Assembly (NCBI GenBank): GCA_963681505.1 | Contig: OY811978.1 | Coordinates: 6,618,586 to 6,682,585, forward strand | Reading direction: 5' to 3' | Source of the DNA: Eunapius fragilis | Lineage: Eukaryota > Porifera > Demospongiae > Spongillida > Spongillidae | DNA: 64,000 nucleotides | Shown here: piece after piece, positions 34,016-64,000 of the stretch | Layout: each line of letters starts with the position of its first letter | Position numbering within the stretch: position 1 is the stretch's first letter | Program-made: the position numbers and the translations under genes | The notes under the pieces: generated by a model | The model's input: the letters and a program-made list of their open reading frames with translations, nothing else | What the model was told of the DNA's origin: nothing | Databases searched by the model: none

Positions 34016-34180
34016 AGATAGCACATCTAACTCCCCTATACATTTAAAATCTCAGCCTACACACATGAACGCCCACATGAGCGGTGTTATTGCGCATGCG
34101 TGCATGCTTAACTTAATCGCACTCTTTACATATATGATGTCCAATTGTACTGTACACTGTACATGCAATTCGAGTCCAAT

Positions 34181-37900: not shown

Positions 37901-38459
37901 AAAGAAACGAGCCATGCATATAGGCAGTTCTGGTGGCTATTCGACCATGCATCTTTGCGTTATATGACACCACCAGACTTGCTTGGGACAAAACTGCACA
38001 GTGACTCAATTGGCAGAGCAGCCCGGTATAGTATAACAGGTCGCCTTCGTTCTATACATGCATGCACTTATAAGGATCGGTTGCTTCAGTACAGTAAAAC
38101 ACCCTTACCCGTGTACATATACAGGACGAAACCAATCAGAGAGTATAGCAAACGACTTAGTAAATATACATATTAGATTAATGCCACCTCAACCAATTTC
38201 ACCCACTAAACCTCGGTCAGCTCTTCATACATGCATGGGCGAAATTTGAGATAGCACAAAACTATATTACGTTCACTTAGAATAGATTGCCATCAATAAG
38301 TAGTTGTCTGTAAACCTTTACATTCCGCGCCATTGTATCGTAGAACTGAGTGCATGGCATACAAACTGAATCAAGAAAAATAATCCTTAATTAAACGTGC
38401 TCTATATAATTACTAGACTGCACGACACACGTTCAATCTGTCGCTGCACGCCGTTTGAA

Positions 38460-41400: not shown

Positions 41401-44018
41401 AAAGCACTACCTGACGAATGCCTACGTTAGTCTATTTGGACTTAAAACAATACCCTTTGAAAATGCAACAGATAATGGGTATTATCATCTTTATGGAAAG
41501 AACTATCGAATTTCAGGTGACACATGCCAGTTGTTCCTGTTCATTTTTAAAATAGCTTCCATTTATTTTAGATTGGAAGAAAGATCCTGGGGCACATTGC
41601 ACTCTTCTTTGGCCAGGCTGGGATGCAAACTTGACCTGCGATATTAAGCATAAGTATAACATAAAAGGAATTGGTGAGTTAATTAAAGTGTATGCATTTT
41701 AAATGGAAGTATAATACTTGCCATCGGTATACTTAGGCCTGTAAATTATCACATTAAAAAAAATTCTGTTCATAATCAGTTTGTAAATTTCAGAGACAAA
41801 TAATTAATACATTGATTAGTTGGTGTTTGATTAACACAACTCCATGTATGTCCACCTGTGTTTTTGTTGTTGCTTTTGTGAGCCATTCTGTAAGTAAAGG
41901 GAGTCAGTCATTCATTCACCGCTGTATACAGGTAAAACTAATACATTTTAAATGAACCTTCAATTTTTGTGTTTATAACACCAGTGGTCTTAAATTATTC
42001 ATTACTTTAAAAAAAGTCAGATAGGTTTGGTTTTAATTACTAAATGTTTGTATTGTAAGACACATTTATATTATTGTGTGACTTTTGGAAATTGTTCCCA
42101 GTACGAATGGAACACTCCAAATTAAACAGATACGCATAATTCTGGATTATGATTAGTTTATATAGCATAATATATACATGCAATCTCACACAACCATATA
42201 ATCATCTGTGTGATGCATGTCAGTGTCGTGTTTATTACGAAGAATCGCTTTGAATACCATGTTGTACATTTTCATACATGCATGTAAACCAGCCATATGT
42301 AGATGCCGAAGTCAACCCAGGTGGGGCACTGTGCACACATCTTGTGTGTTCATCATTACCTCACACATAGGATTGTAACAAACCATACTTATTATGAACT
42401 AAGAATAAGCAGATGGAGATGGAGTGAACTGGCTTCCTGTTCTGAGAGTAAATAGTCATGCGAATAATGTGTTCTTGAGAAGAAACGTATTTACTACAAT
42501 TGTAAAGCAACCAAACATGTTATAAGGTTACAAGTGACCCAAGTAATTGCATGCATCATGAATCCCCTGAGACGAGTCTGCCCACCACAGCAGGGTTGTG
42601 TCTTCACATCATCAACCGATTTTGCACTGAATAAACATCCATGTATGAATGGTTTAACAGTTGTGTGTGCATGCATGCACATGCATATATGCACTTGGCG
42701 TTCAATGAGTTAGTGTATAGCAAATAATTTTTCCGTGCATTAGTATCACCTAGGCAAATGAATCATTGCAATCAAGCATAAAAATTAATTGAATTGAAAT
42801 TTAACTGTTGCTTAAATTGTAGATAGCTACTATGATGCTTGCACAAAGCCAGTAAAGGATGAAATTCAAAATGCTAGTTGTGGCAATCCAACTTCTCAAG
42901 ATTGGACCAAATGGTCAAATCGATGGAGTCGGTTCTCTGCTATGGAGTTTCTCACATCTTCTTATGAAGCCATCATTGAGATACTGAAAATAGGTTCCTC
43001 AGAGGATCTCAGCCCAAGTTACAAAGAGTCTCTTAAGCCTCTCAAGGAGCTTCTTCCTTGGAATAGACAAGCAATCCTTGGATTCTTAGCCTACAACTAC
43101 ACTCCTGGTCTAGACACAAGTCTTGTTGAGCTTCTGCGTGATGATCTAGGACAGTGGTGGCATACTCCCATGCATTCACTTGAGGGAGGTCTCTCTTCAC
43201 TCCCTTGGGCCTTTACTAAAAACATAAAGGGGGTTGAGCTTGAAAAAAAAATTAAATTTGGAATGTTTGTTACAAATGTGAAGTATGAGACAACTCACCC
43301 AAAGGTAGAAGTAACAGCTAAAAATGACACCTTCACACAGCAAGTTGGCACTATCAAGGGAGACGTTGCTATCATCACCTTACCTCTCAATATCATTCGA
43401 CAGCTTACCTTCAATCCATCACTGGAGCCAGGCTTTTCTGATGCACTTATGAATATAACATATAGTCCATCCACTAAGATCTTACTGCAATGTAAGGAAA
43501 GATTCTGGGAGGATCAGGGTATCTATGGTGGGTTTTCTTTCACAACACTTCCAATAGGACAGCTCCACTACCCCGACAACCCTGATAAAAAGAAGGGTGG
43601 ACGAGGGATTTTGATGTGCTATACATGGAAACAAGAAGGTCTACTCTTTGGATCACAACCCAAAGAAATGGCAATTGCAGAGGCAGTTCAAGAAATATCA
43701 TTCATTCATCCTGAAGTCCGTGAGCATTTTGAAGTAGGAGCCATCCAGGCATGGTACTCTGACCCAACTGCACAGGGCGCATTTGCAAGTTTGCTTCCAT
43801 TTCAAATCAAACTCATCGATGACTACCTGCTATATCCATATCCTAAACCCAAATGTGTGACACCAATAAAAAAGTTCCCTCCTCCTCCTCCTCTTTATTT
43901 TGCTGGTGAGGCAATCTCCTACACAAATGGTTGGATCCAGGGAGCTCTAGAAAGTGGGCTAAGAGCTGCATATCAGTTCTACTGTCGTAATGAATGCTAT
44001 GATGCTGAGAAAAAGTAA
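38460..44018 (+). CDS. L-amino-acid oxidase-like flavoenzyme, four exons
   Basis: Exons 38460-38901, 41355-41516, 41572-41673 and 42823-44018 are all joined in phase 1 and give 633 residues. The family oxidatively deaminates L-amino acids to keto acids, ammonia and peroxide, using FAD. The dinucleotide-binding motif [20 protein letters not shown] (GAGLAG at 100-105) and RVGGR (127-131) lie in exon 1. The junction with exon 2 restores [11 protein letters not shown], the substrate-side GAMRxP-type motif. The C-terminal FAD clamp is [20 protein letters not shown] (FAGE at 595-598). No signal peptide is evident. A CCT microsatellite encodes five prolines just before FAGE. AATAAA lies at 44097, about 80 nt past the stop. 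Intron 1 (2.45 kb) is full of transposons. It could equally be a monoamine-oxidase-like enzyme; substrate unproven. Confidence 0.88.
38980..39082. repeat. Poly-C/poly-G tract in intron 1
   Basis: A C-rich run with interspersed T (38985-39038), then a G-run (39061-39079). It may be a relic of a poly-G element, but no ends were found. Confidence 0.5.
39218..40322. mobile_element. Outer transposon with TTTGCACCGCGCACAAATTG sub-repeats
   Basis: AAGACACTTGC, then GCGCACAAATTGAAGTTTGC at 39230-39270, recurs inverted at 40275-40315, so long terminal inverted repeats of at least 75 bp enclose the region. The left arm expands into about eight degenerate copies of a 22-25 bp word (39237-39440). The hAT-type element at 39503-40212 lies between the arms. 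Flanking target duplication not identified. Confidence 0.6.
39503..40212 (+). mobile_element. hAT-type element, internally deleted
   Basis: It is bounded by CAGTGTTGCCGCGAT on the left and the complement on the right (ATCGCGGCAACACTCTG), each followed by AATCGCGATA sub-repeats. Inside, 39732-39914 encodes 60 residues ending in [20 protein letters not shown], the start of the hAT C-terminal dimerisation domain (SERxFS signature). The frame continues past a stop with a recognisable [12 protein letters not shown] tail. The N-terminal and catalytic parts are missing, so it cannot be autonomous. Confidence 0.75.
40325..41240. other. Rest of LAAO intron 1
   Basis: Contains the dispersed repeat block at 40760-40970 (shared with 18321-18470 and 61877-61925) and a poly-C run at 41204-41228. 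No exon seen. Confidence 0.5.
41674..42822. other. LAAO intron 3
   Basis: A/T-rich intron of 1.15 kb ending TTAAATTGTAG. It has ATGCATGCAC palindromic words near 42669-42680. No coding signal. Confidence 0.7.
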
Positions 44019-45191: not shown

Positions 45192-46220
45192 CCATATGTC
45201 CTTTTCTTGCCCAATTGTAAACACGTATTGCCCCATCCGTTTTGTACATATCGACTATGATGTTATTCAATCAGTCCACTTGCTGTATCCAAGAACTGGT
45301 ACGTCATGGGGGTAAAACGTATCATAACTCATAGATTAATGCCGAATGTTTAACACTCGTAGGAAAATGGTGTCCGAACAAATGCTGAGTTTTGGCATTA
45401 CCTTTCCAGCGATGGTTCAGGGCTTACGTAATGCAGATACATAAATTTACATGGCCCATTTCCACGTCACGTAAAAAATTGCTTCACTCACCTGCACTAA
45501 GTTCGACACTAAGCATCGCCTAAACCATCACTCAATAGGTATTGCATACGTTTGGTCGTGGACTGAGGCAATTGATGGATAAAGAATGCTTCCTTCCTGC
45601 AGACTGTAGGTGTACGAGCGGCTGTTGCTGGGTTCTATTTCTGCCCTGAAATCATCAAAAGGGCCTTAGATTCAGTACTTACCTCTGGTTCCACAGTGTG
45701 AAGGAAAATTAAGAAATTGAATCACGCTCATGACACGTAATTAATATTATTATTATTATTACATTGGAAATATCTAGCTGATGTAATTGGCTATTTTTAA
45801 CCAAATACCAAATAAGGTACTACTTGCTATAGGTAATTGCATACACAGTTAGGCGTCTAACAGACACCTGAAGATAAGATGTGAAGCGATTGGTATGCTT
45901 GGCTTTCTTTATAAACGTTCCTGTCATGAGTTATGTTAAAAAGAAGTAGATGATGACGGAGAAATTATGGATGGACTGGGTACAAACAATGGGGATGAGT
46001 ATTAAAAATGCACAGTCTTATGAACGTAGTACTGTTCTACTGTTCTTGTAAAATATTGCAACTTACATGTGCTCTGTTTATTTTTGTGTAGAGTAATTAT
46101 ATATGGTGCCTCAAAATGGCAGAGCAAAAAATACAGTATTTTGTGACTATTTGTTTAAATTGGCATTTTAATTACTCCATGTGTTTATGAATGCAGATGT
46201 TTCAACATAGCTATCGTCCA
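45192..46220. other. Spacer upstream of the GTPase pseudogene
   Basis: Ordinary A/T-rich sequence. No exon recognised. Confidence 0.5.
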
Positions 46221-46222
46221 TA

Positions 46223-49190
46223 TTGGATACCTACAAAACTATTATGTTAAAAGAATTGAAGATTTCGAAATTAATTTTCTATGGAACTCCACGGACAGGA
46301 AAGACCACACTTCGCAAACAACTTCTTAGGAGCGTTGATACTTTTCAAACAAGCAATACCCTTGAGCCAAGTACAAACATTGCAGAAATATGTGATCCAG
46401 TGTTTGTTGAACGAGTAGTATTGACCAATGAAGAGAACAGTGAATGGAAATGGACTGTTCAAGGATTGGATGACATAGCAAAAATGTTGCTGAACTGTTT
46501 AGATAACAAATGCTTACAAAACCCTCAACCCAAACGTGAAACCAGCATACCTAGGAGATATACACATTGTAAGGGTGGCAAATATAACTCCCCAATCACA
46601 CGTTCACATTCTGTTTCAAACACTGATAACAAACAACATCTTGTTACTGGTGTCCTACTTCCTAAAATTTTGACTCCAAAAGTAAAGGAACAGACCAGCT
46701 CTTCATCTGTTGGATCATTACACCACTGTCAAACACAATCATGTGTAAGCATACATGTAGATATTAAGCAGCTTTTTCTGGAGGCTGTTAAAACTGGGAA
46801 GTGGTCAGATGTAGTGAGTGCTCTTCATATTTTTGACAAAGCAATGTTGATACAAATTATCGATGGAGGTGGACAGCCCAGCTTTCAGGAAATTTTTCAT
46901 CTCCTTATCAGCGGTACGTCTGTGACACTTCTCATGTTCAAACTTACAGATGATCTTCTGCAGCCTAACCCTGTCCTGTACCAGCCAAATGATAGTGATA
47001 GAGTGGAGCAAAAATGGCAGGACACATATGTGGTTAGGGATTGCATTTTCCATGCTCTTTCAGGTCTCATTTCATTGCAGCCAGAGTTATGCAAGGCCAA
47101 GGTGAATCCATTGCATTCCAAAGTTCTCTTGGTTGGTACACATAAAGACAAACTAGAGGGCTCCGAAGATGAAAAGAAAGCAAAAGTTAAAGATTATGCG
47201 CAATCATTATTTAAGTGGCTGCGTCATTCAAAAGCATTATTTAAACTGATCAACGTGCACAGTATTGACGATTTCATTACTGACATTAGCAATTTTAACC
47301 ATCAAGATGTATTGCAAATAAATCGGAAAGTTAATATCTCATGGAGAGCCTCAAAATATCCCAGCTCCATGGCTTGTGTTTGATTTTGTTCTGCATAAGT
47401 ACGCAAAATTGCATATGAAGCGTAAGGTTAAATATGAAACAATAGCCAATCTCTGTGGTATTAAGGTTGATGAAATAGGTGTGGTTCTTCATTATCTTCA
47501 TCATGTAGCATGAGCACTTCTATACTATTATGATATACCAGAACTAAAGGAACATGTCATAACTGACTTCCAACTTATATTTGATTCTATCTCAAAAGTT
47601 ATTATCCAGTACTTTGACAGTTCAGGTCACATGGGTGACAAGGAATTGTTTTGCAAGAAAGCTCAATTTGAGGATTCGGTTCTGCAAGAAGATGGTTGTT
47701 GTCTAAATGTCAGCGAACTACTTGCATTGTTGCAGCATCGTCACATAGTATCTCAATTAGAAGAAGGCAGTTTCTTTATGCCTTCTGTGCTACCAAAGGT
47801 ATAGGTATATATTGAACCACCTGTTAATTCTTGTTCCATGTTGGTCATGTTTGATTTTGGTTATTGTCCTGTTGGACTCTTCTGTGCTGCAGCCACCAGG
47901 CTTATTGTCGCTCACAAATGGAAGTTAATAGATCAGAGCAATTTAGAAAAAAATAAGCTTCCATTGTTCCATGTCTGGAAATTGCTACACCATAGTATTT
48001 ACTGCTTACTCAGTACATTATGAAGTAAAGCTTGTTGAAAAAGATGCCCCTTCACAAATCAAGTCTCATACTTACCAAGCATCAAGGATGTATTTGAAAA
48101 GATGTGAAGAGATCTGCAATGTCCAAATCCAATATATGGATTCTACTGTCCAGAGACACGTACATATGTGATGGTGCTACATACCCACAGTTCCAACACC
48201 CTGCTAAGTGTAGTGACAAAGCAAAGCAGATGAAATGTTTTTACACTGACACCATAAGCAAATCAACTGAAGAGCATAAGATGTGGCTTCACTAGGTATA
48301 AATAGTTTCCTCTCTAACAGTAATTTTTGTATGCTTATAAATTTCATGATGAAACCAAATGCAGTTGTAAATACATGTGGCTTGCCTTACAGCCTAGATT
48401 CTCTATTGATGGGACATGTAAAGAGGAAGAAAATAAACACAAACAGTAGCTTACTTTACCACAGTACTGTATGTACTGCATTTATGTATTTAAATATTAT
48501 AATGAATGGTGGCGGTGCCCAATTCCATGGTCTATATCCACTGTCTCTTTGAGTTTCTGATGGCTATGACATGTTCAGGGATCAAACAATGTATATTGAC
48601 TATTAGCAGGCATAGGAATGAGCAACTTGATGATATTAGTTACTAGCAATCATGACCCAATGTCTTTGACGATGTAGCATGCCTTAAACACAAGACCTGC
48701 AAAGTTTGAAATGCTAATCATTCAAATTATTATTTTTCATGTGCATTGCAAATACCAACTTTTTTTTTTTGGCGGCAGTTAGCACTTTTTGTTGATTTAG
48801 CAATAAAAATTGCATGGACCACATGTTAAAAGATTACACTCTATATATTTGAATCTCATAGCATTGCAACTCAGTTTGAGGACATTATTGGGATTCCCTG
48901 GCCAGAGCAGGCTATTATTTGATGTGACCACAGAAGTGGGAAGACACTATATTCGCTTAGGAGTACACCTCTTGAATGATGATAACCAAGTTCTCACAAG
49001 CTCCCTGAAAACTGATTTCCAGAAGAATGTTGAAAGGATCAACCAAGCTATCTTTAATAAATGGCTTGAAGGGAAAGGATTGCAGCCAGTTGCATGCTTG
49101 GTCAACGTTGCTTTATGTCATTAGACAGGTTAAACTATCTTCATTAGCTGATCAGATAGAGGATGTTGTCAGTATTTTAGAACAGTAACT
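46223..49190 (+). pseudogene. P-loop GTPase - COR-like - Death domain gene, broken
   Basis: The first open part (46223-47383, 386 codons) encodes a Roc-like GTPase: G1 GTPRTGKTTLRKQLL near residue 21, G3 IIDGGGQPSFQEIF, G4 VGTHKDKL. Just past its stop another frame continues with PQNIPAPWLVFDFVLHKYAK and KVKYETIANLCGIKVDEIGV, interrupted near 47510 by a TGA (HHVA*ALLYYYDIPELK). COR-like sequence then changes frame at about 47995 and 48150 (ICDGATYPQFQHPAKC). About 500 bp on, 48850-49188 reads as a Death-like domain (VGRHYIRLGVHLLNDD, IFNKWLEGKGLQPV) and, after a final shift near 49117, SLADQIEDVVSILEQ with a stop. At least four breaks make it non-functional unless introns or errors explain them. 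Similar GTPase-Death proteins are common in sponges and cnidarians. Confidence 0.7.
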
Positions 49191-51335: not shown

Positions 51336-52685
51336 TTACAGGATAACCAATCCAGATTCAGAATTTTTTAGCAAACGTTGCTCGGATTCACTGCGCATTA
51401 ATTGCACCTTGCCAGTGGAAGAAACCAAGGCACTTGACCTCAATAGCCTTCGAGCAGTAACTTGTGGAGGAATCTCACTATCCATGCTATCCTCAGTTCC
51501 AGTTTCACAGGTTGACATATCAGATGATTTAAGTTCAAATGCATAGGATTTTGAGTTGTCCAATCCATTAAAGTTGTGACAGCACTTATTTGTAATGATT
51601 TGGACTCTGTGATCATTTTTATTTGTAAGTTTTGCATGACCATAAAAGAGGTGGAACCACTCCTGCCGGATCTCTGGGTTAAATAGACAAATGAAAGCAA
51701 ATAAAAAGAATCCTTGTGGGGCATTGAAGATGATGAACAGTACTTCAAATGTATATGAGGCCTCCTTAACACTAAAGGCTGCAAAGATCCAGGATAGGCC
51801 AAATAGAAACATTACACCAGTCATGCTAATAAATGTCTTTAAAATGGTCTTCTGGTTTGAGTTATTTTCTGTGACAGATTTCGTTGTGCAGTTACTTATA
51901 ATTATGACTCTTCCCACAACAACAAATATAACAGCGTTGAAGAGGAGGATGGCAAATATGGGACCCAGAAAGATACCAAAGAACAAACCAAGATTACTGA
52001 TGAAACAGCTATGACAGTATGAATCATGAGGTTAGCAATGATTATCAAAGGACCATGTCAATGACTTACTATGCACAACCTTTAGATGATCCCTCAGCAG
52101 TGTAGATTAGGTAATTTTCACCAGTTACAAGGGTTGCCAAGGCCACAACAACAAACACTATTGGAATACCTGCAGCACCACCACATAGGTAAAGAACTTA
52201 CTAAAACCATGTGCATATTTGGTCATGCTTGTGACTTACACCAAGCAACAATAGAGATGATTGCTATCTGTAGAGAGGTGGTCCTCTTAAAGACTTGGGT
52301 CAATTTTTGGAACATGAGCACTGCCTCTGCTCCCATCCAACAGAGCGAGGCAATTGTGAAGTAGAGGATAAGGATGGACATTAGAGTGCAGACATATCTG
52401 TTCTCAGTACGATCAATTCCAACTCTGAAGAACAGTAGCATGAAGAAGAGGGCAATGCACAACTGGATGTGGAACTGGTTAAAATCTTTCCTTCGCTGTA
52501 TTCTGAAGACAAGAAGGTCCAGCCATTGATCAAGCATTCAAAATACAGCACATGCAGCCTCACTTGAACCCAGCGAGGGTTAAGATGGTGATCACGAGTC
52601 CCACCATGGATAGGACCACTCCAATGTTGGTCAGCTGTGTTGTAAATTTATTAGAGCAGCTGGGCTGTATGCGAGCATTGATATC
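51336..52685 (-). CDS. Seven-transmembrane exons and C-terminal tail
   Basis: TM1 (IGVVLSMVGLVITILTLAG) in 52564-52685; TM2-TM3 (IALFFMLLFF, TIASLCWMGAEAVLMFQKL) in 52240-52502; TM4 (IPIVFVVVALATLVTG) in 52070-52169; TM5-TM7 in 51336-52008 (FFGIFLGPIFAILLFNAVIF; FISMTGVMFLFGLSWIFAAF; VLFIIFNAPQGFFLFAFICL). CAYCFISN before TM5 supplies the conserved ECL2 cysteine. The tail is rich in Ser/Thr and basic residues. Confidence 0.9.
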
Positions 52686-54470
52686 CTAGAAACATGGGGC
52701 CATACAATAGTGTCAATCTTCACTGTAGTATGCCCTTACAACTAGAACTGCAAAATTTGTCAGATGGGTGCACCTGCACTTGATCATACCACTACCATCA
52801 TCCTCAGTGGTACAGCCCTCAGAGGACCAGTTGCCTTTACCACCTAAAACAGTAAAGTCAACAGGCCCGCACCGATTTATGGCGTGGCATGACTTACCGT
52901 TTGCTGTGAATATCCAGAAGACACAGGTGGCATTGTAGCAGCGGCAACTAGCCTTATTGCAGTTGGAAGTGTTGCTACAGGTGAAATCGCCCCACCTGCC
53001 CACCACACTCTGGTTCTGCCAAAAGATTACCACCGCTTTAATATGGATTGCTGATATGCACCCGTTATAAATACATTTAACATTGCCATTTCACCCCCTC
53101 TCTCCAGATTCGTACTTGATGCTTATTGTTTATTGGCTTTCCATAATATTTACAAGTAATAAAAACATTCTCTATAAGAATGCTGCAGTCATATTGGATT
53201 GAAAGGCAATGGTGTTGTAAAAAGCATAAGAACAAGGTTTACTGAAATGGAAAAATGAAATTCACCTACATTTAACACAATTGTAAGATGCTGTACATGT
53301 TTTCATGGATGCTACATACAGGTGTATTTTATTTTTCCATTTCAGTCAACCTTGTTCCCATGCTTTTTACACCACCATTATCTTTAAATCCAATATGCCA
53401 CCGACTTTTTTTGTAGAGAATGATTTTTATTAACTGTTTCATGCGTTTTTTTTTGCATTAGGTCGGATGGATATAAAACCATAACCTGCAATTTAATGAC
53501 ACCATTAATGGTGTAATTAATCATTCATCCTAACCCCCCCCTCCCCCCCCCCCCCCCCCCCCCTCCCTTCCTACGTTGCCCCCTAGGTGAACCTAAGCAA
53601 GAAGACAAAGCAATGTGTACAAACTATAAGATCACCAACATTCACACAATAACCCAATTCGATTAGATAAAACTTGCAACTCCCCATAATGTGACGGTGG
53701 TATAGTGAGCATCTACTGGTACAGAGGTCTTCTTTTCTGGGCCAGTTTGTAACAGTTACACACATAGACCTTCTTTTCAGGATCACATACAGAGGCCTTT
53801 TTGTTTTTGGGATTTGCTTCATAGCGTGGTGGCGCTTTACTCTAGTTCTCATTTGAGGATTTCTCACTTCTGCTCATTGCTTGGATATTATGGAAGTCAT
53901 TTTTGTAAAACTTCACTATCCAAAAGTATCGATTAACTGCTATAGGAGTACAAAAACTATTTTGTGCTCTGGTATTATGCTGCTTTGAAAGCATAGGTGT
54001 GGTTATCATATGTCAGTAAATTTCATAGTAGGTGCATGGCCTGGGGCCAAGATGATTTTTTTAAATCAAGCCTTACATACTAAATACGGTACAGTACTAC
54101 TCGCTTTTGTATTCTGCCCAATATGTCATACATATCTAACTCTTAGGGATAAAATGCAGATATATGCAGAAACCACTGTGGTGCTGTTTTTGCTCTGCAA
54201 CATTGTTTCTAGCTCGGGTTCTTCTCAACAGAAGGAAATAAAAAGACGGGAAAAAATTGGACTGAGTATGATTCATGGGCACAAGCATTTCTCAAAAAAC
54301 ATGCGGTGTTATGACAAGGAACCAACACAAATCTGTTCTTGTTTGTATTACCATTTGATAGTGACGTAGAAGGAAGTGATCTGATTCACAGTCATCCTTC
54401 CTGACATGAGTCACATTTTTACTATGCTGCATCAATCGTATATGGAACCTGCGGAAGCAGGTTCCAATAG

Positions 54471-54566
<96 letters not shown>

Positions 54567-56610
54567 ATTGAGTTGTGTTTGCAGTGTTTACCATATGTTC
54601 ATGGATGTTTAAAATATAATAACATCATTAATGATCCAGCTGGTTCTCCTGTACTGTTAATGGGCCAGCAGTATTGTTAATGGTCAGCTTTGTTGTTAAT
54701 GGGCCAGTTGTATTATTAATGGGCCAGCTGTATTGGTAATGGGCCAGCCATATTGGTAATAGTCCCTCTCTTAATGCTTACTGTGGTTTCCATACTGTTC
54801 AAAGCTGGGACAGGGAATAGGGGGAAGATCACCTCCACAGGAACCGAGAGCACAGAGGTGTTTACACCAACTATAGTGGCTGAAATCACCGAGGAGCCAA
54901 TAGTCACATTGGTCGTGTTGAACACTCCTACTCCAGTGCCATCATGGAAGGTGCTATTGCTTCCATTCATTGCCAGAGGAAAGAGTATGGAAGTATTATA
55001 GTACATAAAGTATGTCACCACAAGGCTGGCATCAGTAGTGTTATAAGCTTCTCTAGGGATGGTGATGCAAGGGCGTGTGATGTTTCCACATCGTGCTGGG
55101 GTTGATGAATTTCCTGAAATTTATACAAAATCACATATAATATATATACCAGGCAAATTCTCCATAGCTACAATAGTTCTCCATAAAATGCTTCATAATG
55201 TCTTTGAATTTTTAATGTCTACTCTATCTATAACATTTAACTCTCCATGTAATAGCTCTAGGATGCTGTTAAAGTACAAATATCCTTTGCAGGTAAGCTT
55301 GTTGACAATTGAGCCAGCTTAAGTTGCTGGAAACTGAATTATCTATAAAGTCTTCAATTTAGAGGTAATCAAATTAGTGATAAAATACAAATATGCAAAG
55401 CATTTTACCATGTCCAGTCAGCAAGGAACTTCTAAAAAATCTCAGTAATATCATATCTTACCATTAGAAATATTTTAAAGTGACGGGACCTATGTTAGTG
55501 TGTGCTCTATCGCAATCCATCGTGTTGAATGTTTCAAAAAGTCAAGGTATTTCATTTATGGAAGAATGTTTGATTCATCAGTAAGTACAGATGGGCATGT
55601 TACCTTGAAGAGTTATTAGATTCTAGCCATAAACTGTGCCAGTGTGTGTCATACTAGCAAGGGCTCTGTAATCAATATGCATAATCCATTTAAAGTTCGG
55701 CTTACAAAGGACATGTATGATAAGAAGTGTTGATGATGAACTTCATCATTTACTAATAGCATTAATGGGAAAATTGCATGATTCATTTTGTTGTATGCTA
55801 TCATAATGTACAGGGTTTCACAGCATGAAAGTTTGGATTTACAATATATTTATTACTGTTCAAATGTGGCACAAATGTGTTAGTAAATACTGTATATGCA
55901 ACATTTCTGCTATACTAAATGAAAGCATTATATTTACTATTGTGTTGATGTCACATATAACATATTTACTAACACATTTGTACCACATTTGATCAGTAGT
56001 AAATATATTGTAAATCCAAACTATCATGCAATGTTTCAGTTGTGAAATCATAAAGGGCCAGGCTTCAGCTTTTGATATCATTGTTGTGCATCCACTCATC
56101 ATACTTTCATATAGCACAACTGAATTTTGTAGCTTCAATGAACTGTATAATGGCCCAATGCAGCTGTGAGTGCAGTCTACTAGCTGTTAAAATATACAGT
56201 TACTGAGTTACTGGGGTGAAAAGGCTGAAGAAACCTATGAGCATGCAGGGGCGGATACAGGGTTTTCCAAAAGGGGGGGCTGAGACCCGCGATACGAAAC
56301 GCGGGGGGGTGCTGTCCGCTTTAGACCCGACAAGAAAAGCGGGGGGGGGGGGGGGGGGGGGGGGGGGTTGCTGCCCGCTTCAGGCCCGATACAAAAGGCG
56401 GGGGGAGGGGGTGCTGTCCGCTTCAGGCCCGATACGAAAAGCGGGGGGCTGTCCATTTAAGGCCCGATACGAAAAGCGGAGGGGGGGGGGGGGGGGGGGG
56501 GGGGGTGCTGTCCAGCACATCAGGCCCGATACAAAAAGCGGGGAAGGGGGAGGGCTGTTTAGCAGAAGAGGGGGCGTTACCATATATGAAAGGGGGGGTT
56601 GCAACCCCCA

Positions 56611-56648
<38 letters not shown>

Positions 56649-56791
56649 TTGGATCCGCCTCTGGCATGCTACAAAGGTTTTATGATCAAGACTTGTAGGG
56701 TTTGACCATATTGAGAGCAATTGCAAATGCTGTTATTACACAATTAAATTGGTCTCATTCTATAGGGGTTGTATATATGCATATGCACGTG

Positions 56792-56832
<41 letters not shown>

Positions 56833-59800
56833 CATTGTGTTTTACAGCTTATGTACATGTATTACATATAAAAAGTATGATTGACTTGCCTAACAGTAAT
56901 GTCCGCTCTTGTTGGGCAGGAAAAACTGCCCCAGTTTGTTTAAGAATGACAGTACTATCATTCTAAAAGGGAAAGTAAATTGCTTATAACAGTGCCTCAA
57001 AAAGAGAACCTTTAAATTACCTTAATGGCAATCGTTACCAATGGTTCAACTAATGGCTGATCAGTGAAGTTTTTGCCATCAATCCAGCTCCGAAAAAGGC
57101 CTTCAGATGATTGCACAATTCTGTGAAGAGGGAAGCTCCAGTCACTACGGTGATGATAATGCTATATATGGCAGCAGTGTACCTGGACGAGTAATCCTTT
57201 AAGGAATTAAGAGGCCATATTGATATTCCACTGAGGATCTTGGTAGTACTATCTATCAACTATAACAAACAGAAGTTACTGTATGTGTGAAGTCATTCAT
57301 TCATCATGCCTTCTCTATCTCCCTTGTTACCCATATTTTAAAAATACTGTTGGTGGCAACAGATAAAAACTAGATGCAGTTTTTAAAACATGTGCCTATC
57401 ATTAAGGAAGTAATGTGTGTTGCAACAAAACCTTTGCTCTTATGGCAGTCAAGGTTACATGTTTTATTAATATTTTAGGAACCTGGTCATTATCACTCAA
57501 CCCCAGTCTCACCTCAGTGTAAATCATTAATTTTGTGTTGTTTACTGTAAGGGAAGCTGTCGATGTTACCACAAATGCAACTGATGCTATATTTCCCGCT
57601 GTTTGGTCATTAGTGCTGGATTGGATTATCAATTTACTTAAACTGTAAATCACTCCCACAGCTGTGTCAGCAGTAATTTTCTGGTGTAGTACAAGAAAAA
57701 AGGAGTACCAGTTAGTAATCCATTAACAGGGGGGCAGCGATTTCACTTACAGCACCACAGTCAGGATCCCCCACTGTCCTGAAGTTGAAAGTTGCCATGG
57801 TGACACAACCAGGGCCCACTGCAGAGCTCCAAAGGTGGACACCTCTGCAAAAGCGTGTGGCAACAGCATCAGGGGATTCGCCCTGTTTAAGGCAGTTGGT
57901 TCGATTTTGATAGAGCATGCGATTATAGGTGCAGTTCAAGGTAACTGGTGCTGTTGTGTCCACTGCTGTCTCTGGCCACACATATGTGCCAAAGGGAGTA
58001 AAATTATCTGTATAGTCACAGAATCCACTCGCTGGGTAAGAAGAGTGCAGTGAAAACTAAGCACTGGACTGTGCCACGGGGTGTAAGTACCTGATATATT
58101 AATAGAGCTCTGTATGAGGCCATACACAAGACTCAGGTTGGCTGAAGCTAAGAGAGACATGGCCTCTGTACAATTTTTATCATTAGAGTTGTAGTTTGCA
58201 ACTCTACATTCAACCCTGGTTTGATTCCTGTCCGGACTGGAAACAAGATGGATAGCATGCAGGTATATTCACATGTATATTGAGGTATCTAGATTTCCCC
58301 ATACCTTAGCACAAAGGAGCAGTTGACCACTTGCTGTCCCATCAGGCTACTACCAAGTCCATACAGCACCTGGAAGTATACAGCAGTGACATTAGAGTGT
58401 AATGCGAGAGGTGACAGGCTGGTACCATTAGAGTGTCATGCCAGAGGGGACAGTGGTACCATTAGAGTGTCATGCCAGAGGTGACAGGCTGGTACCATTA
58501 GAGTGTCATGCCAGAGGGGACAGTGGTACCATTAGAGTGTCATGCCAGAGGGGACAGTGGTACCATTAGAGTGTCATGCCAGAGGGGACAGTGGTACCAT
58601 TAGAGTGTCATGCCAGAGGTGACAGGCTGGTACCATTAGAGTGTCATGCCAGAGGACAGGCTAGTACCATTAGAGTGTCATGCCAGAGGTGACAGGCTGG
58701 TACCATTAGAGTGTCATGCCAGAGGACAGGCTAGTACCATTAGAGTGTCATGCCAGAGGGGACAGCGGTACCATTAGAGTGTCATGCCAGAGGGGACAGT
58801 GGTACCATTAGAGTGTCATGCCAGAGGACAGGCTGGTACCATTAGAGTGTCATGCCAGAGGGGACAGTGGTACCATTAGAGTGTCATGCCAGAGGGGACA
58901 GTGGTACCATTAGAGTGTCATGCCAGAGGGAGCAGGCTGGTACCTGAGTTTCAATGTAGCGCAGTACAAAGTCATCAGAGGGCAGCGACAGAGCTGACTG
59001 CATGTCTAGGAGATGTGCAGTTGAAAACCTCACATAGGCAACAGAAGATGTTCCACTGGGAGCTGTGAGGATGCACACACAAGAGATAGTATAGCAGCAT
59101 GTAGCCAGCATGTGCAGGTATGGTGTAACCAACCTTGAAGTCTGACTACTACTCTAGCAGTGCTTGCTGTCTCCTTGTTAGCTGCCACACACTGGTACTC
59201 TGCCTCCTGATACAGTCCTATGGTCCTATTTTGTCCTCCTAGAGTGCTCAGGGTGGCCAAGGTGAGGTTCCCCTGGTAGGTGTACAGACCACCTGGTGTG
59301 CTGCTGGACGTAAGGTTACCAACACCTGACCAAAAATACAGGATAAAGAAGTGGATCAATAAGCCCCCTCAACCTCACCAGAAGTGTTCCACATTGCCTG
59401 TCCACTACAGTCACCACTGGCCATGCAGTACAGAGTAAATTCTCTCCCAGTGGTACCGAAGTAGTCATAAATGACGCCATTATCAGGCCCACTTCTAGTT
59501 ATGTAGGAACTCATAATAGGCACAACCGTCACTGCACATGGCTGGATTGTTGTGTCCTGTATGGAAGTAAAAGCATCTCTGAGCTTCCTCACCAATACCG
59601 CACCAAACCACACCCCTCTCTCATACCATACCAAATCTCCTTCCCCATATGCATAAACTTACCACGTAGACTCCATAGGTACCCAAGTGGTCACAGGTGC
59701 AATTAATGATATTGCCATCCTTTTCCATTATCCCATTCTCATCAACTGCTATTTTGCAACCATTTTGCATCCAGTTGCTAGTGTTGTGGTCCCAGGACAC

Positions 59801-61312
59801 GCACAGGGGTGAAGTGTAATTCTGTGTGTGTGTGGGTATAGCCGTAAATGAATAGGGAAAGATATTGGGGGGAGATGGAGGAGGGTGCATTGTGATACTG
59901 GTCTCCACCTGAAAGTGAGCATTGCTAACTAGTACCCCTCCCCTCCCCATACTGCATGATTTCTAAATAGTGCCCTCCCGGCAGATCCCATACTGCATGG
60001 TACTAATTATAATATCCTAGGTTGAATGAAAATCTTTAGAACTTGGATCGAGTCTTTGTGTTCAATAACGTGATAATACCAGCCACAAATAGATGCAGTA
60101 TGAAGTGTGTGCAGCCATTGACACAAACGGTACTCAACTGTCTTATCCATTCGCAGTGTAACAGTTATGTTACACCGATCACTCATTCCATCAATGTAGG
60201 CTTTCAGGACATTGGAAATAACCCGAAAGCCACTTGTTTGGTTTGAAGGAGGGTAATAAATGGCTGATGACATCGCTGTAAAGTATGCTCCTACTATTCT
60301 ATTGGGGCTCATGGCAGTGCCTGGTGGTATGTAGACTGCTAATTCTGGGTCTTCACATCGCGATGCAATTGGGCCAAACATTTAAATACAAAGAAAACCA
60401 GACGAGCATGGTTAGTGTACGACTACCTGTGCCATGAGGCACCATAACCAATACCCACCTTTAAACCCCATCACATTAGACCCCATGACTGTGTTCACCT
60501 ACAAAGGGCAGACAGTAATGACCCAATAATAAACAAAAGGGCTAATGGGAGCCCCTACATTCTTGGTGAGTACAGACAGATCATTTGCTGTGATGTTCAG
60601 CTCAAGGTGCGACTGTGCAATCTTGGTAAGGACAGTGTCTAGGCTCTTCACCAGGCTAGGGGGGCAGGGAGGGTGAGAGTGCAGGGAGGACAAAAGAACA
60701 AAAGAGAGAATGAGATTAACAAATGGTGGCATGTGTACTGGTTGTTACCTTGCTGATCCATTGTATAGTGCTTGGGATGGCCAGTGTTTCATGGCATCGA
60801 GGGCATAGACAATGCTCCGAGCAGGCTATGTGAGGAGGGGATTGTTTTAATAGTAACTATAGCTAAGCAGATTGCTTACCAATTCAGTATCGTTGACTGA
60901 TGCACTTGCAATCTTTGTAAGCACAGTTGAAATTAGCCTCACGTTGTCTTCAGTTTGGTCCTCAGTGGTAGCAGAGTACAGAGTGGTGTTCACTATGTTG
61001 GTCACCATGGTAATATTATATTCAGTTATTGATTCCTGTCAGGTACCAACCAGCTATCACATGGCATGCACACCAGATGATGTAAAGCTCTTACAGCAAT
61101 AAACTTCAGCAGTTTGGACTGCACCATTGTCAGGCACTGGGTGAGGTTGACCTCACCCCAGCGGCCATACTCATTACACCACCTTGTGGCCACACCTCCT
61201 GAGCCAGTGGCATATTTATAGGTGCATGCTTGGATATATACATTTTCAGCAGATGTGGTGTTCCATATGTAGACACCTCTGATTGAAGCTGTGCTGCTGG
61301 CTGGACAAGAAA
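51336..61312 (-). CDS. Adhesion GPCR with two HRM-GAIN-GPS modules and an Ig-like domain (5' end missing)
   Basis: Exons, 5' to 3': 61095-61312, 60880-61035, 60749-60825, 60559-60655, 60459-60498, 60139-60350, 59663-59908, 59379-59556, 59134-59325, 58944-59062, 58305-58369, 58091-58227, 57751-58007, 57513-57680, 57183-57259, 57021-57120, 56890-56962, 54782-55113, 52898-53015, 52740-52843, 52564-52685, 52240-52502, 52070-52169, 51336-52008. Every junction keeps phase, giving 1,373 residues. Order: HRM 1-50, GAIN 73-290, GPS 295-348, Ig-like 355-471, undefined module 472-578, HRM 579-664, GAIN 665-930, GPS 940-988, seven helices about 1005-1240, tail of about 130 residues. Many N-glycosylation sequons fit an extracellular domain. 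Adhesion GPCRs sense contact or mechanical cues through a tethered agonist after the GPS. The exon 56890-56962 has a GC donor. Signal peptide and any further N-terminal domains lie outside what I could assign. Confidence 0.88.
52740..53015 (-). CDS. GPS 2, two exons split by a 54-nt intron
   Basis: 52898-53015 ends TCVFWIFTANG; 52740-52843 continues GKGNWSSEGCTTEDDGSGMI then KCRCTHLTNFAVLV. The intron 52844-52897 has GTAAGT and TTTTAG ends. H-L-T is the canonical cleavage triad, and TNFAVLV would begin the tethered agonist. Confidence 0.9.
53150..53445. repeat. M1-family MITE, second full copy
   Basis: Inverted arms around 53155-53280 and 53330-53440, with the same TTCTCTA.AA...GGATTGAAAGGCAATGGTG pattern as 3405-3705. 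Inside a receptor intron. Confidence 0.7.
53536..53570. repeat. Poly-C run
   Basis: A C run broken by single T residues; no element ends found nearby. Confidence 0.7.
54472..54565. repeat. (GT)n microsatellite with two GC interruptions
   Basis: About 47 dinucleotide units inside a receptor intron. Confidence 0.95.
54656..54762. repeat. Tandem repeat GTTAATGGGCCAGCTGTATT
   Basis: About five units of 18-24 bp immediately inside the receptor intron whose donor is at 54781. No function evident. Confidence 0.7.
55114..56160. other. Receptor intron sequence
   Basis: A/T-rich. An inverted pair of about 60 bp (ACAATATATTTA...ACATTTG words at 55840-55880 and 55965-56010) flanks a short centre, probably another small fold-back. 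No exon. Confidence 0.5.
56246..56663. mobile_element. Complete poly-G MITE with 5-bp target duplication
   Basis: Left end CAGGGGCGGATACAGGG, right end the complement of CAGAGGCGGATCCAAGGGG. GCATG flanks both sides (56241-56245 and 56664-56668). The interior is four to five diverged units of CCGCTTCAGGCCCGATACGA with G runs of variable length. Non-coding; the same family as 4124, 35537 and 50950. Confidence 0.82.
56788..56831. repeat. (GT)n microsatellite
   Basis: About 20 units, with one C interruption. Confidence 0.85.
57751..58007 (-). CDS. HRM domain 2 exon
   Basis: Encodes DNFTPFGTYVWPETAVDTTA, APVTLNCTYNRMLYQNRTNC, then AVATRFCRGVHLWSSAVGPG and C. This is a second HRM, larger than the first through an insertion with two extra cysteines. 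Acceptor CTATACAG and phase 1 entry agree with the preceding exon. Confidence 0.83.
58091..59062 (-). CDS. Undefined extracellular module, three exons
   Basis: Exons 58944-59062, 58305-58369 and 58091-58227 encode about 107 residues (VAYVRFSTAHLLDMQSALSL, VLYGLGSSLMGQQVVNCSFV, RVECRVANYNSNDKNCTEAM). Alternating strands and helices and three cysteines suggest a small globular domain; SEA-like is possible but unproven. The intron between the first two exons is a minisatellite. Confidence 0.65.
58384..58943. repeat. 34-36 bp minisatellite filling a receptor intron
   Basis: About 15 units of GGTACCATTAGAGTGTCATG followed by CCAGAGGGGACAGT or a CCAGAGGTGACAGGCT variant. The array runs up to the splice donor of exon 58944-59062, and the donor GTACC itself has the form of a repeat unit end. 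Confidence 0.9.
59134..59556 (-). CDS. Ig-like domain, two exons
   Basis: 59379-59556 holds GREFTLYCMASGDCSGQAMW (first Ig cysteine and tryptophan); 59134-59325 holds NLTLATLSTLGGQ and EAEYQCVAANKETASTARVV (second cysteine and terminal strand). The intron is in phase 1, and the module lies between the two GPS-bearing halves. Confidence 0.85.
59663..59908 (-). CDS. GPS 1 exon (non-canonical cleavage site)
   Basis: Encodes the end of GAIN 1 and a full GPS: PLCVSWDHNTSNWMQNGC, then NCTCDHLGTYGVYV. All four GPS cysteines and both tryptophans are present. The cleavage triad is H-L-G instead of H-L-S/T. The exon is followed in phase by the Ig-like exons, not by a transmembrane segment. Confidence 0.88.
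61095..61312 (-). CDS. HRM domain 1 exon
   Basis: Encodes CPASSTASIRGVYIWNTT, then ACTYKYATGSGGVATRWC, NEYGRWGEVNLTQC: the hormone-receptor-motif pattern CP..G.W...C....G.A.R.C..(Y)G.W......C. This is the most 5' exon assigned. It starts in phase 1, so at least one coding exon precedes it. Confidence 0.85.
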
Positions 61313-61551
61313 CTGCATGGAGTGGTTGAAAATTGCCAGTAAAGAGAAGAGGATATATTCAGATAGAGCCAAAAATATCTAAAAATATACAACATCCATA
61401 TGTAAGTTTGGAAATATGGTGGGGGATATGTTTGCATAGAATGATTAACAACGGCACCGGATCTGTGCAAATTGAACCGAACCCCTCCATTATGAAAAAT
61501 ATGAGATAATGTTTTACGGGATAGAACTTTTTATCCATCGCTGAAATAGTT

Positions 61552-62095
61552 GGGATCCGGTTCACAATTTTTCGGTCATCGCAGACAGGTAGGTACACTT
61601 CTTTCTAAAGTTGTTTTCGATAAATTTTATTGTGCTTTCATGCTTCAAATAGGTCGTGTTGATAATTAGCTTAGTTTCCGCAAAGACTACTTGTTCTGAC
61701 ATGTCCCCAGATGCATACATATATATGGGACAGTAACCAGCAAAATCACTCTTCGGGGTAGTTTTTCAAGTTTTCAAATTTTTTGATTTTCCGTGAACTC
61801 CAAAGAGCTTCAATCAAACAGTCCTTACGCATCCTAGATTGGACTATTCATCATAAAGTTATTAGGCACTGAATATTATAATTAGCCATACATTTCAACG
61901 CGAGCGTTACTTTTCTTTTGCTTATCCTGGTTGCTGGACACTGTTCCATACATACATCTATTATACATGCATCAGGGGAGTGGGGACACGTCAGACCAAT
62001 TAGTCTGATATATGATCTCTATTTGAAGCATGAAAGCCCAATAAAATTTGTCGAAAGGAGCTTTAGAAAGTCCGAGAGATCATGAACCGGATCCC
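61552..62095. mobile_element. MITE with GGGATCCGGTTCA ends
   Basis: Terminal inverted repeats of over 100 bp: GGGATCCGGTTCA at 61552 and its complement ending at 62095; inner blocks TTTCTAAAG and ATAAATTTTATTG.GCTTTC match inverted at 61605-61665 and 62015-62072. About 350 bp of unrelated interior includes a stretch shared with 40760-40800. No coding capacity. Confidence 0.7.
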
Positions 62096-62131
62096 GCATA
62101 AGCATCAATGAAGGTACAAGAGTAAAAATAA

Positions 62132-62204
62132 AGCGCATACTCGTCCACCCCAAGTATAATAATGATTATTATATTACACTTGGGATGGACGAGTATGCTG
62201 CTTT
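62132..62204. repeat. Short hairpin
   Basis: GCATACTCGTCCACCCCAAG and the inverted CTTGGGATGGACGAGTATGC flank a loop of about 20 A/T-rich bases. It could be a micro-MITE or a small-RNA precursor; sequence alone does not decide. Confidence 0.6.
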
Positions 62205-62639
62205 CATGTTCTGAGATAAATATGACACCAAACTGGCAGCAACTATGATCGCCACATGCAAGCACATATTCTAATTGTTTTCAAGTTGATGGGCTGTGAC
62301 TGCAAAACTAAGTAGCATGCTGCGTGCGATGGCTTCCAAATCTAATACATGGCGGCAAGTGATTTGTGCAGGTTATAATGAACATTGAAGATCAATTCTG
62401 CTAGAAAATGTCTTTTGTAAAGCCATCGAGGCCTTGGCACACTTGCTGCTTCCAAATCTGAGAAAGCATTGCCAATCACATCCCTGGAGGTGGAAAACTG
62501 CAAGAGGCACGAGCAGGAGTAGATTTCTGACATTGACAACTTTGCCATTGGTGATTAATATTCTTGCGCCTCTGTCTGAGAGGGACCATACCTTGGCTAT
62601 GGCTATTCAGTGCACGCAAGGAAGGGTGTGATGTCATCT

Positions 62640-64000
62640 CATGACGCTGATCAGAATACAGCCAGCATGGAGTGCAGCAATTTCAGCACACCAGGAACTG
62701 GCGGAATTCGCATCAGCACCTGACCTTTTTATCAGCCAGACAAACAGCATGAATTTGTGGACCGTGTACGAGTCCAGCTCTGTTACTGTACTCAGTACAA
62801 GAACTGCCGTACATGTACATGTAAAGAGCAGTAGTTTGAGTACACACTCATCAGTGTTCTCGTTGGACCTGATTTCAAACAGGAGCCCAATAGCAGCCTA
62901 AACGTGATCGTCACCTCGAGTGTAATGCCTGCAGAGGTCTCTTTGTCTTTTATGACAGGTTGGAGCAGTGGCTCTGAACCAGCTGAAAGAGGACCCCACT
63001 AGGCTGTATGAAATAGCTGATGTGCTACTAACTAAACATCAATGTGAGCGCCACACTATTAGAAACAGGCTCCATGTAATGCAAGCTGCCAATCAGACAT
63101 CTCAGGATGAAGCAAGCAATTGCAGAAATGGATTCCACCACTGCTTACCTGATATTTGACTTCAAAAAAAAGTTCCTTGCCAAAGGATTCTGTGAGGGTG
63201 GTGATTCCTACTATGGCAAGAAGGGCATGCTTTGGTGGGGAGCTGACAGTGTATTCATCAGACATTGGACTACTGATTAATAAGAGGTCATGAGTGACAA
63301 ATCCAATGAAAAACTTCATGTGATGATAGACTTTAATGATGAGAAAGTCCAATCACTGCAGCAAGTTGATGTGACAAATGAGGGAAATGATAGGAGAGTA
63401 CTGGCAATGGAGATTAAAGGAGATATGGCGGAGAAAGGATGTAAAAGTTATCATGAAAGAGGTGGTTATGGGTGTGAGGAAGGAGTAGAGGGTGGTGTGA
63501 GGAGGGAGAGGGATGGTGTTAGGAGAGGGATGGTGTGAGGGGGCAGAGGAGGATGAGGGAGAGCAAGATTAGTGGGAGGAAGGAGAGGGGAATAATGGGA
63601 ACAAACATGAGGGAATGCAAGACAGGACAGTGTGAGGTAGACATGCACGTGGCATATCTGAGCAGGATAGTAGGGATTGTGATAGTGGATGACAATTAGG
63701 AGGAGGACAGAGTGAGATCTCCATTTTATTAATAACTGTGTTGTCCACAATGAGCAGAAAAATGATGCTAATTTTATGCCTAGATTCAGCCCTTCATGCT
63801 TTGAGGCAACAATTCCTTCATGTCAATAAACTCATCACTGGTAGTGACAATGCCAAAAACCTGGCTGGCAAGCAAAGTGTCTCCTGTATCATGTGTGCTT
63901 GGCTGCAGTTGTTCAAAACTATTGCCTATTATCACAATGAGGTACATGTACAACGTGGCAACAATGTGTGTGACACACATTTCTCACACCAACAGACCCA
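62640..64000 (+). mobile_element. Transposase-like family, copy 2, broken, running off the window
   Basis: Open stretches on the plus strand include a block with MKQAIAEMDSTTAYLIFDFK and YYGKKGMLWWGADSVF (63105-63280), an acidic/Gly-rich low-complexity part (63290-63720), and a block at 63785-64000 with HVNKLITGSDNAKN and GNNVCDTHFSHQQT. The SDN...D(T/A)HF.HQQ pair equals that of the copy at 30.5-32.3 kb. The order of blocks matches that copy where they overlap. Superfamily unknown; it looks inactive. Confidence 0.5.

Follow-up and report, generated by a model that had tools for sequence, protein, structure and literature searches.

The 64,000-nucleotide stretch of Eunapius fragilis DNA analysed here (the window) carries, on its minus strand from 61312 to 51336, a gene whose sequence supports one adhesion G protein-coupled receptor (aGPCR) with two HRM-GAIN-GPS modules in tandem. 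The outer GPS (GPS1) appears to have lost its cutting residue and to have been kept by selection. Together with exons lying upstream of the window, the chain probably forms one large demosponge aGPCR composed of an arm of SRCR and EGF domains, a distal GAIN domain (GAIN1) that is dead for cleavage, a canonical membrane-proximal GAIN domain (GAIN2) and a seven-transmembrane (7TM) region.

Exon chain and identity of the modules

Rebuilding the gene from its splice sites gave 24 exons with 23 junctions that are phase-compatible throughout, encoding a chain of 1374 amino acids in which the terminal stop is the sole stop. An exon chain with two GPS before seven helices and phase intact at every junction had been described in the first-pass annotation and was recovered here in full; its order, in a single frame, is HRM, GAIN, GPS, Ig-like domain, small module, HRM, GAIN, GPS and 7TM. 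The introns are GT-AG with one exception, a GC donor after exon 56890-56962.

The outer module opens with the HRM1 exon (61095-61312), which is entered in phase 1, aligns with HRM2 and reaches 18.8 bits with Pfam HRM (cut-off 26.2). GAIN1 (60139-61035) lies on five exons, 60880-61035, 60749-60825, 60559-60655, 60459-60498 and 60139-60350, recognised by splice sites, phases and homology to GAIN2 and to a single-module receptor on another contig, C17. The limits of the last of these are probable, having been refined from paralogous genes, as are those of the GPS1 exon at 59663-59821, for which two paralogues (P1 and P3, described below) put the exon start at the residues Asn-Tyr. The Ig-like domain (59134-59556; exons 59379-59556 and 59134-59325) is in frame, contains a YQCVAANK motif and matches Ig_3 with an E-value of 0.035, short of the cut-off, and the small module of about 110 amino acids (58091-59062; exons 58944-59062, 58305-58369 and 58091-58236) is likewise in frame and matches no Pfam model over cut-off.

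The second module begins with the HRM2 exon (57751-58031), entered in phase 1 and aligning with HRM1, to which Pfam HRM gave no match. GAIN2 (54782-57680), placed by splice sites and phases, occupies exons 57513-57680, 57183-57259, 57039-57120, 56890-56962 (the one with the GC donor) and 54782-55113, and an intron between two of its exons holds, at 56290-56660, a repeat element with long G/C runs and units of 35-43 bp. GPS2 (52740-53015; exons 52898-53015 and 52740-52843) is followed by the seven helices and a cytoplasmic tail (51336-52685; exons 52564-52685, 52240-52502, 52070-52169 and 51336-52008). Of the exon bounds given earlier, that of the GPS2 exon at 52740-52843 stood, whereas the upper limits of the GPS1 exon (59908, now probably 59821) and the HRM2 exon (58007) had to be moved. 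With the refined boundaries GAIN1 and GPS1 comprise 247 residues, which is compact against 318 for GAIN2 and GPS2. Exon phases are alike in both modules (0, 0, 2, 0, 1, 0), GPS2 having one extra internal phase-1 intron, and this sharing may be general to the family.

In the spliced chain Pfam identified both GPS (30.2 bits for GPS1 and 57.6 bits for GPS2, cut-off 22.5) and 7tm_2 (102.9 bits, profile positions 7-249 of 250). The profile search proposed in the first-pass annotation was thus borne out for the two GPS, but not for HRM, which was below cut-off or unmatched, nor for GAIN, since PF16489 matches neither half of the chain. Lack of a GAIN-fold match in one half had been named as telling against the tandem; the Pfam model misses both modules and was set aside as an uninformative test of them, whereas profile comparison places both as HRM-GAIN-GPS. 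When the modules were compared as profiles of four sequences each, module 1 and module 2 aligned with a probability of 97% in hhalign (E 1.1e-10, 297 columns), and Pfam HRM was listed for all four sequences of the module-1 set (best E 0.0011). Module 1 aligned with the single-module receptor on C17 at 98.7% over 296 columns, and module 2 at 99.2% over 165 columns only, which represent its N-terminal part.

Solved aGPCR structures were matched as well. For the module-1 profile alone the match to ADGRF1 structures (E 0.0043) was confined to subdomain B and GPS, and for the module-2 profile that to ADGRG2 (E 3.1e-8) was confined to the GPS region, where ADGRL3 and other aGPCR structures were also matched. 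Six sequences combined into one profile (three of the four of module 1, two of the four of module 2 and the C17 module) matched ADGRG2 at E 1.6e-14 and ADGRG6 at E 2.2e-14 over positions 15-351 of 351. Judged by these alignments, both halves are HRM-GAIN-GPS modules homologous to those of aGPCRs, and by sequence profile the vertebrate receptors ADGRF1, ADGRG6 and ADGRL3 probably share their fold. Each of these vertebrate receptors has one GAIN domain. The earlier description of two complete modules holds in that both align as HRM-GAIN-GPS, but GAIN1 is compact and GPS1 is without a cleavage nucleophile.

The chain has a GPS with the H-X-S/T motif (HLT in GPS2) directly before the first helix, as is found in aGPCRs, and a long N-terminus with adhesion-type domains in the form of SRCR and EGF exons upstream. 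It departs from the usual single GAIN-GPS per chain in that two GPS stand in one open chain, at four loci. A PKD1-like protein was ruled out, as the Pfam scan of 51336-61312 gives 7tm_2 and no PLAT or polycystin model, and so was a secretin receptor, as GPS2 sits between HRM2 and 7TM. The two modules and the one on C17 are about equally distant, with identities of 23-30% in the pairs compared, so that a recent internal duplication is unsupported. The tandem may have originated by internal duplication or by fusion of two genes. Descent from an ADGRF-like receptor (SEA-Ig-HRM-GAIN) is not claimed, its sole pointer being the weak ADGRF1 match.

Paralogous loci and the unity of the chain

Genome scans covered the 219-Mb genome of 24 contigs, in which the window gene lies on contig C8. 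The GPS search revealed further pairs of matches 3-4 kb apart on contig C9, and translated searches found there three loci with the same order of pieces as the window gene: P1 (C9:280759-286935, plus strand), P2 (C9:294794-288538, minus strand) and P3 (C9:322571-315450, minus strand). Exon-by-exon modelling gave 24 exons and one terminal stop for each. P2 and P3 are close to the window gene in most exons (55 of 72 residues identical in HRM1 and 75 of 87 in TM2), and the HRM2 exon gave translated matches of 98% to itself and 77-80% at the three paralogues. Among the best candidates scored, module 1 and the linker had whole-genome matches at E 0.001 at these four loci only. That the order is repeated at three paralogous loci argues that the tandem chain is more than chance.

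The paralogues are mosaics of one another. Exons G2a-G2d are 98-100% identical between P1 and P2 against 56-71% between P2 and P3, and exons G1b-G1e and TM1 are 96-98% identical between P2 and P3 against 55-71% between P1 and P2, a pattern that gene conversion or unequal exchange would be expected to leave. The GC donor at window positions 56889-56890 was chosen for the same intron in all three paralogue models.

The repeated order also bears on whether two adjacent genes have been wrongly joined, namely one for a soluble HRM-GAIN-GPS-Ig protein and a separate one for an HRM-GAIN-GPS-7TM receptor. This explanation would agree with the description of aGPCRs, in the published texts consulted, as having one GAIN linked to 7TM, and with the failure of Pfam to recognise HRM2. 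Against it, the introns between GPS1 and HRM2 are short, measuring 106, 53, 71, 574, 68 and 59 nt in the window gene and 56-198 nt in the paralogues bar one of 543 nt in P3, so that at all four loci the same order is held together by introns of 53-198 nt save one in the window gene and one in P3. A 34-bp minisatellite of about 16 copies (58390-58930) fills the intron between the first two small-module exons of the window gene, and the 543-nt intron of P3 is at the same place. Furthermore, the HRM2 exon continues in phase 1 from a preceding exon, and the Ig and small-module stretch has a ratio of nonsynonymous to synonymous substitution rates (dN/dS) of 0.14-0.45 over six pairs, which represents purifying selection. 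Two genes are thus extremely unlikely from the DNA, given four loci, short introns and a constrained linker, and the one gene proposed in the first-pass annotation is retained.

The two cleavage sites

Cleavage of GAIN domains takes place at H-X-S/T, where the His acts as base and the hydroxyl of Ser or Thr as nucleophile, according to the text of PMC13062082. In GPS2 the site is His-Leu-Thr (HLT, cut before the Thr; 52758-52766), followed by the tethered-agonist-like stretch TNFAVLV, and HLT is present at GPS2 in all four genes. At the corresponding position of GPS1 (59681-59689) His-Leu-Gly (HLG) is found and the nucleophile is lost; the stretch from the Gly onwards reads GTYGVYV or GIFGVYV.

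The genome search gave 65 GPS matches over the Pfam cut-off, of which 63 were read, the weak ones at C18:1615145 and C5:1538501 being left out. HLT was present in 59 of the 63 and HLG in four, which coincide exactly with the GPS1 sites of the tandem genes. In this typing a script assigned 45 HLT and four HLG sites, 13 sites with another Cys pattern were read by eye as HLTSFAVL, and GPS2 of P2 was taken from its model. If four exceptions had fallen at random, the chance of this coincidence would be 1.7e-6, a value calculated as if the four genes were unrelated. As the genes are related, the loss of the nucleophile may be a single old event.

All four copies of GPS1 share the His, the Leu, four Cys and two Trp without change, and dN/dS in the GPS1 exon is 0.11-0.28 over six pairs of 46-53 codons, given without confidence limits and for pairs that are not independent. 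Two stacked mechanosensitive units, one of the two possibilities raised earlier, fit poorly, since all four genes have Gly where the Ser/Thr nucleophile would be. The other possibility, that one module is a decoy, agrees with the dead GPS1 but not with the purifying selection upon it. Since a dead GPS1 is under such selection, module 1 looks, on the sequence evidence, like one that is maintained for regulation or as a spacer, not like an idle decoy.

One may ask whether module 1 is instead a passive relic of internal duplication or fusion, retained merely as an in-frame part of a long extracellular chain. The compactness of GAIN1, its faster evolution (dN/dS 0.45-0.81 for GAIN1 and GPS1 as a whole against 0.26-0.44 for GAIN2 and GPS2) and the loss of cleavage and agonist-like residues from GPS1 are what such a relic would display. 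The conserved framework of GPS1 argues in the opposite direction, as does a dN/dS of its exon that is below that of other parts in most pairs, although the lowest values for the linker (0.14) and GAIN2 (0.26) overlap with it. We regard the relic as unlikely. A three-piece receptor with two force-sensitive joints, in which GPS1 is cut as well, whether by a protease or through a different chemistry, is highly improbable: GPS1 does retain His-Leu and the Cys framework, but Gly has no hydroxyl to serve as nucleophile, and a site shifted by one residue is not conserved, as the Gly is followed by Thr in three copies but by Ile in P1.

Proposed working, upstream arm and comparison with known receptors

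From the chain, its repetition in four genes, the pattern of dead and live sites and the purifying selection on GPS1, all of which are read from the sequence, we infer expression, cleavage states and force transmission as follows. The arm of SRCR, EGF and NIDO domains would bind ligand. GAIN2 alone would cut itself between the Leu and Thr of HLT, stay non-covalently assembled and hide the tethered agonist TNFAVLV; binding of ligand to the arm, or a pull on it, would dissociate GAIN2, and the agonist would then switch on 7TM. GAIN1 retains the catalytic His and the disulphide and Trp framework of GPS, with Gly standing for Ser/Thr; as a pseudo-enzyme module it would stay covalent and relay to HRM2-GAIN2 the force on the distal arm or its ligand state. 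A cleavable GPS1 would shed the arm without touching 7TM or freeing the agonist, and we propose this release without signalling as the reason why none of the four genes has a live distal site.

It is possible, and we put it forward tentatively, that this represents a pseudo-GAIN, a distal module without cleavage or agonist function that has been selected to gate or transmit force to the active GAIN, within a small family of sponge SRCR receptors subject to gene conversion. A pseudo-GAIN beside an active GAIN would resemble, in its logic, a pseudokinase that neighbours a kinase. To our knowledge, the role of GAIN domains beyond cutting and hiding the tethered agonist is unsettled, and a cuttable and an uncuttable module in the same chain constitute a natural test of these other functions.

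The arm lies beyond the window. The region given in the first-pass annotation ends at 61312, but the gene does not start there: the HRM1 exon is entered in phase 1, so that an upstream exon is required, and SRCR and EGF exons were found upstream. The adjoining end of the window (61313-64000) is probably intron up to the last SRCR exon (64597-64752 on the scale of the window), placed by the SRCR/EGF exon map and the phase-1 donor at which that exon ends, as read from the sequence. The distance from this exon to HRM1 is about 3.3 kb in C8 and about 1.1 kb in P1; in P2 and P3 it is about 300 bp at most. In the stretch C9:295056-306845 upstream of P2, 12 first-half and 10 second-half SRCR exons and 14 EGF matches were counted with hidden Markov models built from these same sequences; of examples taken from C8, Pfam recognised two as SRCR and one as EGF, and the joined last SRCR pair reached 61 bits. 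NIDO exons (Pfam 95.8 bits) upstream of the SRCR/EGF array are conserved between P2 and P3, as is a signal-peptide-like exon, MAGWCTQLFFALVALFSARPAS, chosen by hydropathy in P2 at about C9:310683. The SRCR/EGF matches in C8 run to window-scale 83258, and the membership of all of them in this gene is not assured. Between window-scale 64001 and 84000 the array contains a direct internal duplication of about 8.5 kb with near-identical exons (for example 71758/80333 and 70197/78674).

These phases allow a further explanation. The block from HRM1 to the small module is a phase 1-1 block, since phase 1 applies to the entry into both HRM exons and to the end of the last SRCR exon; skipping of the block would yield an ordinary single-module receptor, the double module then being a splice-regulated long arm. 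Symmetric exon blocks are common in extracellular proteins, however, and such an isoform switch is rather improbable.

Several observations weigh against the large receptor with a maintained but dead outer module. In the window gene HRM1, HRM2, the Ig domain and both GAIN domains fall short of the Pfam cut-offs, and in the whole-genome scans with the HRM and GAIN models all matches (7 and 8, respectively) were in other genes. The paralogue models were made with the exon phases of the window gene imposed and stops forbidden, so that the search itself accounts in part for their open frame, and P1 is weak in Ig1a and in G1c-G1e (12 of 32, 5 of 13 and 17 of 66 residues identical). The synonymous rate in GPS1 exceeds 1 in three of the six pairs, those including P1, and the faster evolution of GAIN1 could mean relaxed or diversifying selection outside GPS. 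The SRCR/EGF array is tied to HRM1 by phase and adjacency only, and the start of the C8 gene was not found upstream to about window-scale 83258.

Within the same genome the closest comparison is with the receptors at C17:1150001-1180000, where three similar GPS-7TM units stand in tandem; as read, a 78-nt GAIN exon of the third is out of phase with the next. These units share HRM-GAIN-GPS with HLT and are about 44% identical in the last TM exon, but they have one module, and no Ig or small linker was found there, the extracellular module being taken from the third. In Amphimedon queenslandica the SRCR-bearing aGPCRs Aq712029 and Aq715659 have been reported (Krishnan et al. 2014, PMC4302439). 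Like the window gene these are demosponge aGPCRs with SRCR repeats, in a set that also includes HRM, GPS, Ig and EGF, but in the text consulted, the figure 4 drawings aside, there is no mention of two HRM-GAIN-GPS modules. For Halichondria panicea 57 GPS-bearing GPCRs are reported, a similar number of GPS genes, with receptor domains including GPS, HormR, GAIN, NIDO, EGF-Ca and SR; the architecture of each gene is given in a figure only, where an earlier drawing of the tandem form may exist (PMC8242945).

Uncut or poorly cut GAIN domains as such have precedents in ADGRB2, ADGRB3 and ADGRG5, in which the uncut domain is, by the text of PMC13062082, the membrane-proximal one, whereas in the window gene it is an additional domain, placed distally and preceding a canonical site. 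No description of tandem or multiple GAIN or GPS was found in searches of literature text, a scope that excludes figures, most subscription papers and PMC5548486 (a paper listed for two GPS), nor was a tandem GAIN found in the first 300,000 of the 412,533 characters of the review PMC13197933. A survey of GAIN domains set the C-terminal boundary by the annotated GPS record and trimmed long sequences to the GAIN region, as far as its text describes (PMC11697300), and with such a single GPS boundary a second module could have been missed.

Two other aGPCR loci, on C18, have doubled HRM matches. At C18:1824800-1830226, HRM at 1825556 and 1827383 precede one GPS at 1828847, and at C18:1947900-1953200, HRM at 1948431 and 1949850 precede one GPS at 1951390, with EGF-like pieces between the HRM domains at both. 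The other coding stretches of the window (34112-35455, 38391-38948, 42816-44015, 6556-8238 and 17219-17683) hold an FAD oxidoreductase of the DAO type, fragments of a flavin amine oxidase, ankyrin repeats and a match to COR-B (Roc-COR) that stays under the cut-off, and the long frames at 46211-47380 and 2028-2612 have no Pfam match. Elsewhere in the genome, silicatein-like exons mark it as very probably that of a demosponge: GASYAF, which we take to be a silicatein hallmark, replaces the GSCWAF active site in two of the 14 peptidase C1 stretches read among 84 matches (C3:8530344 and C5:8058694).

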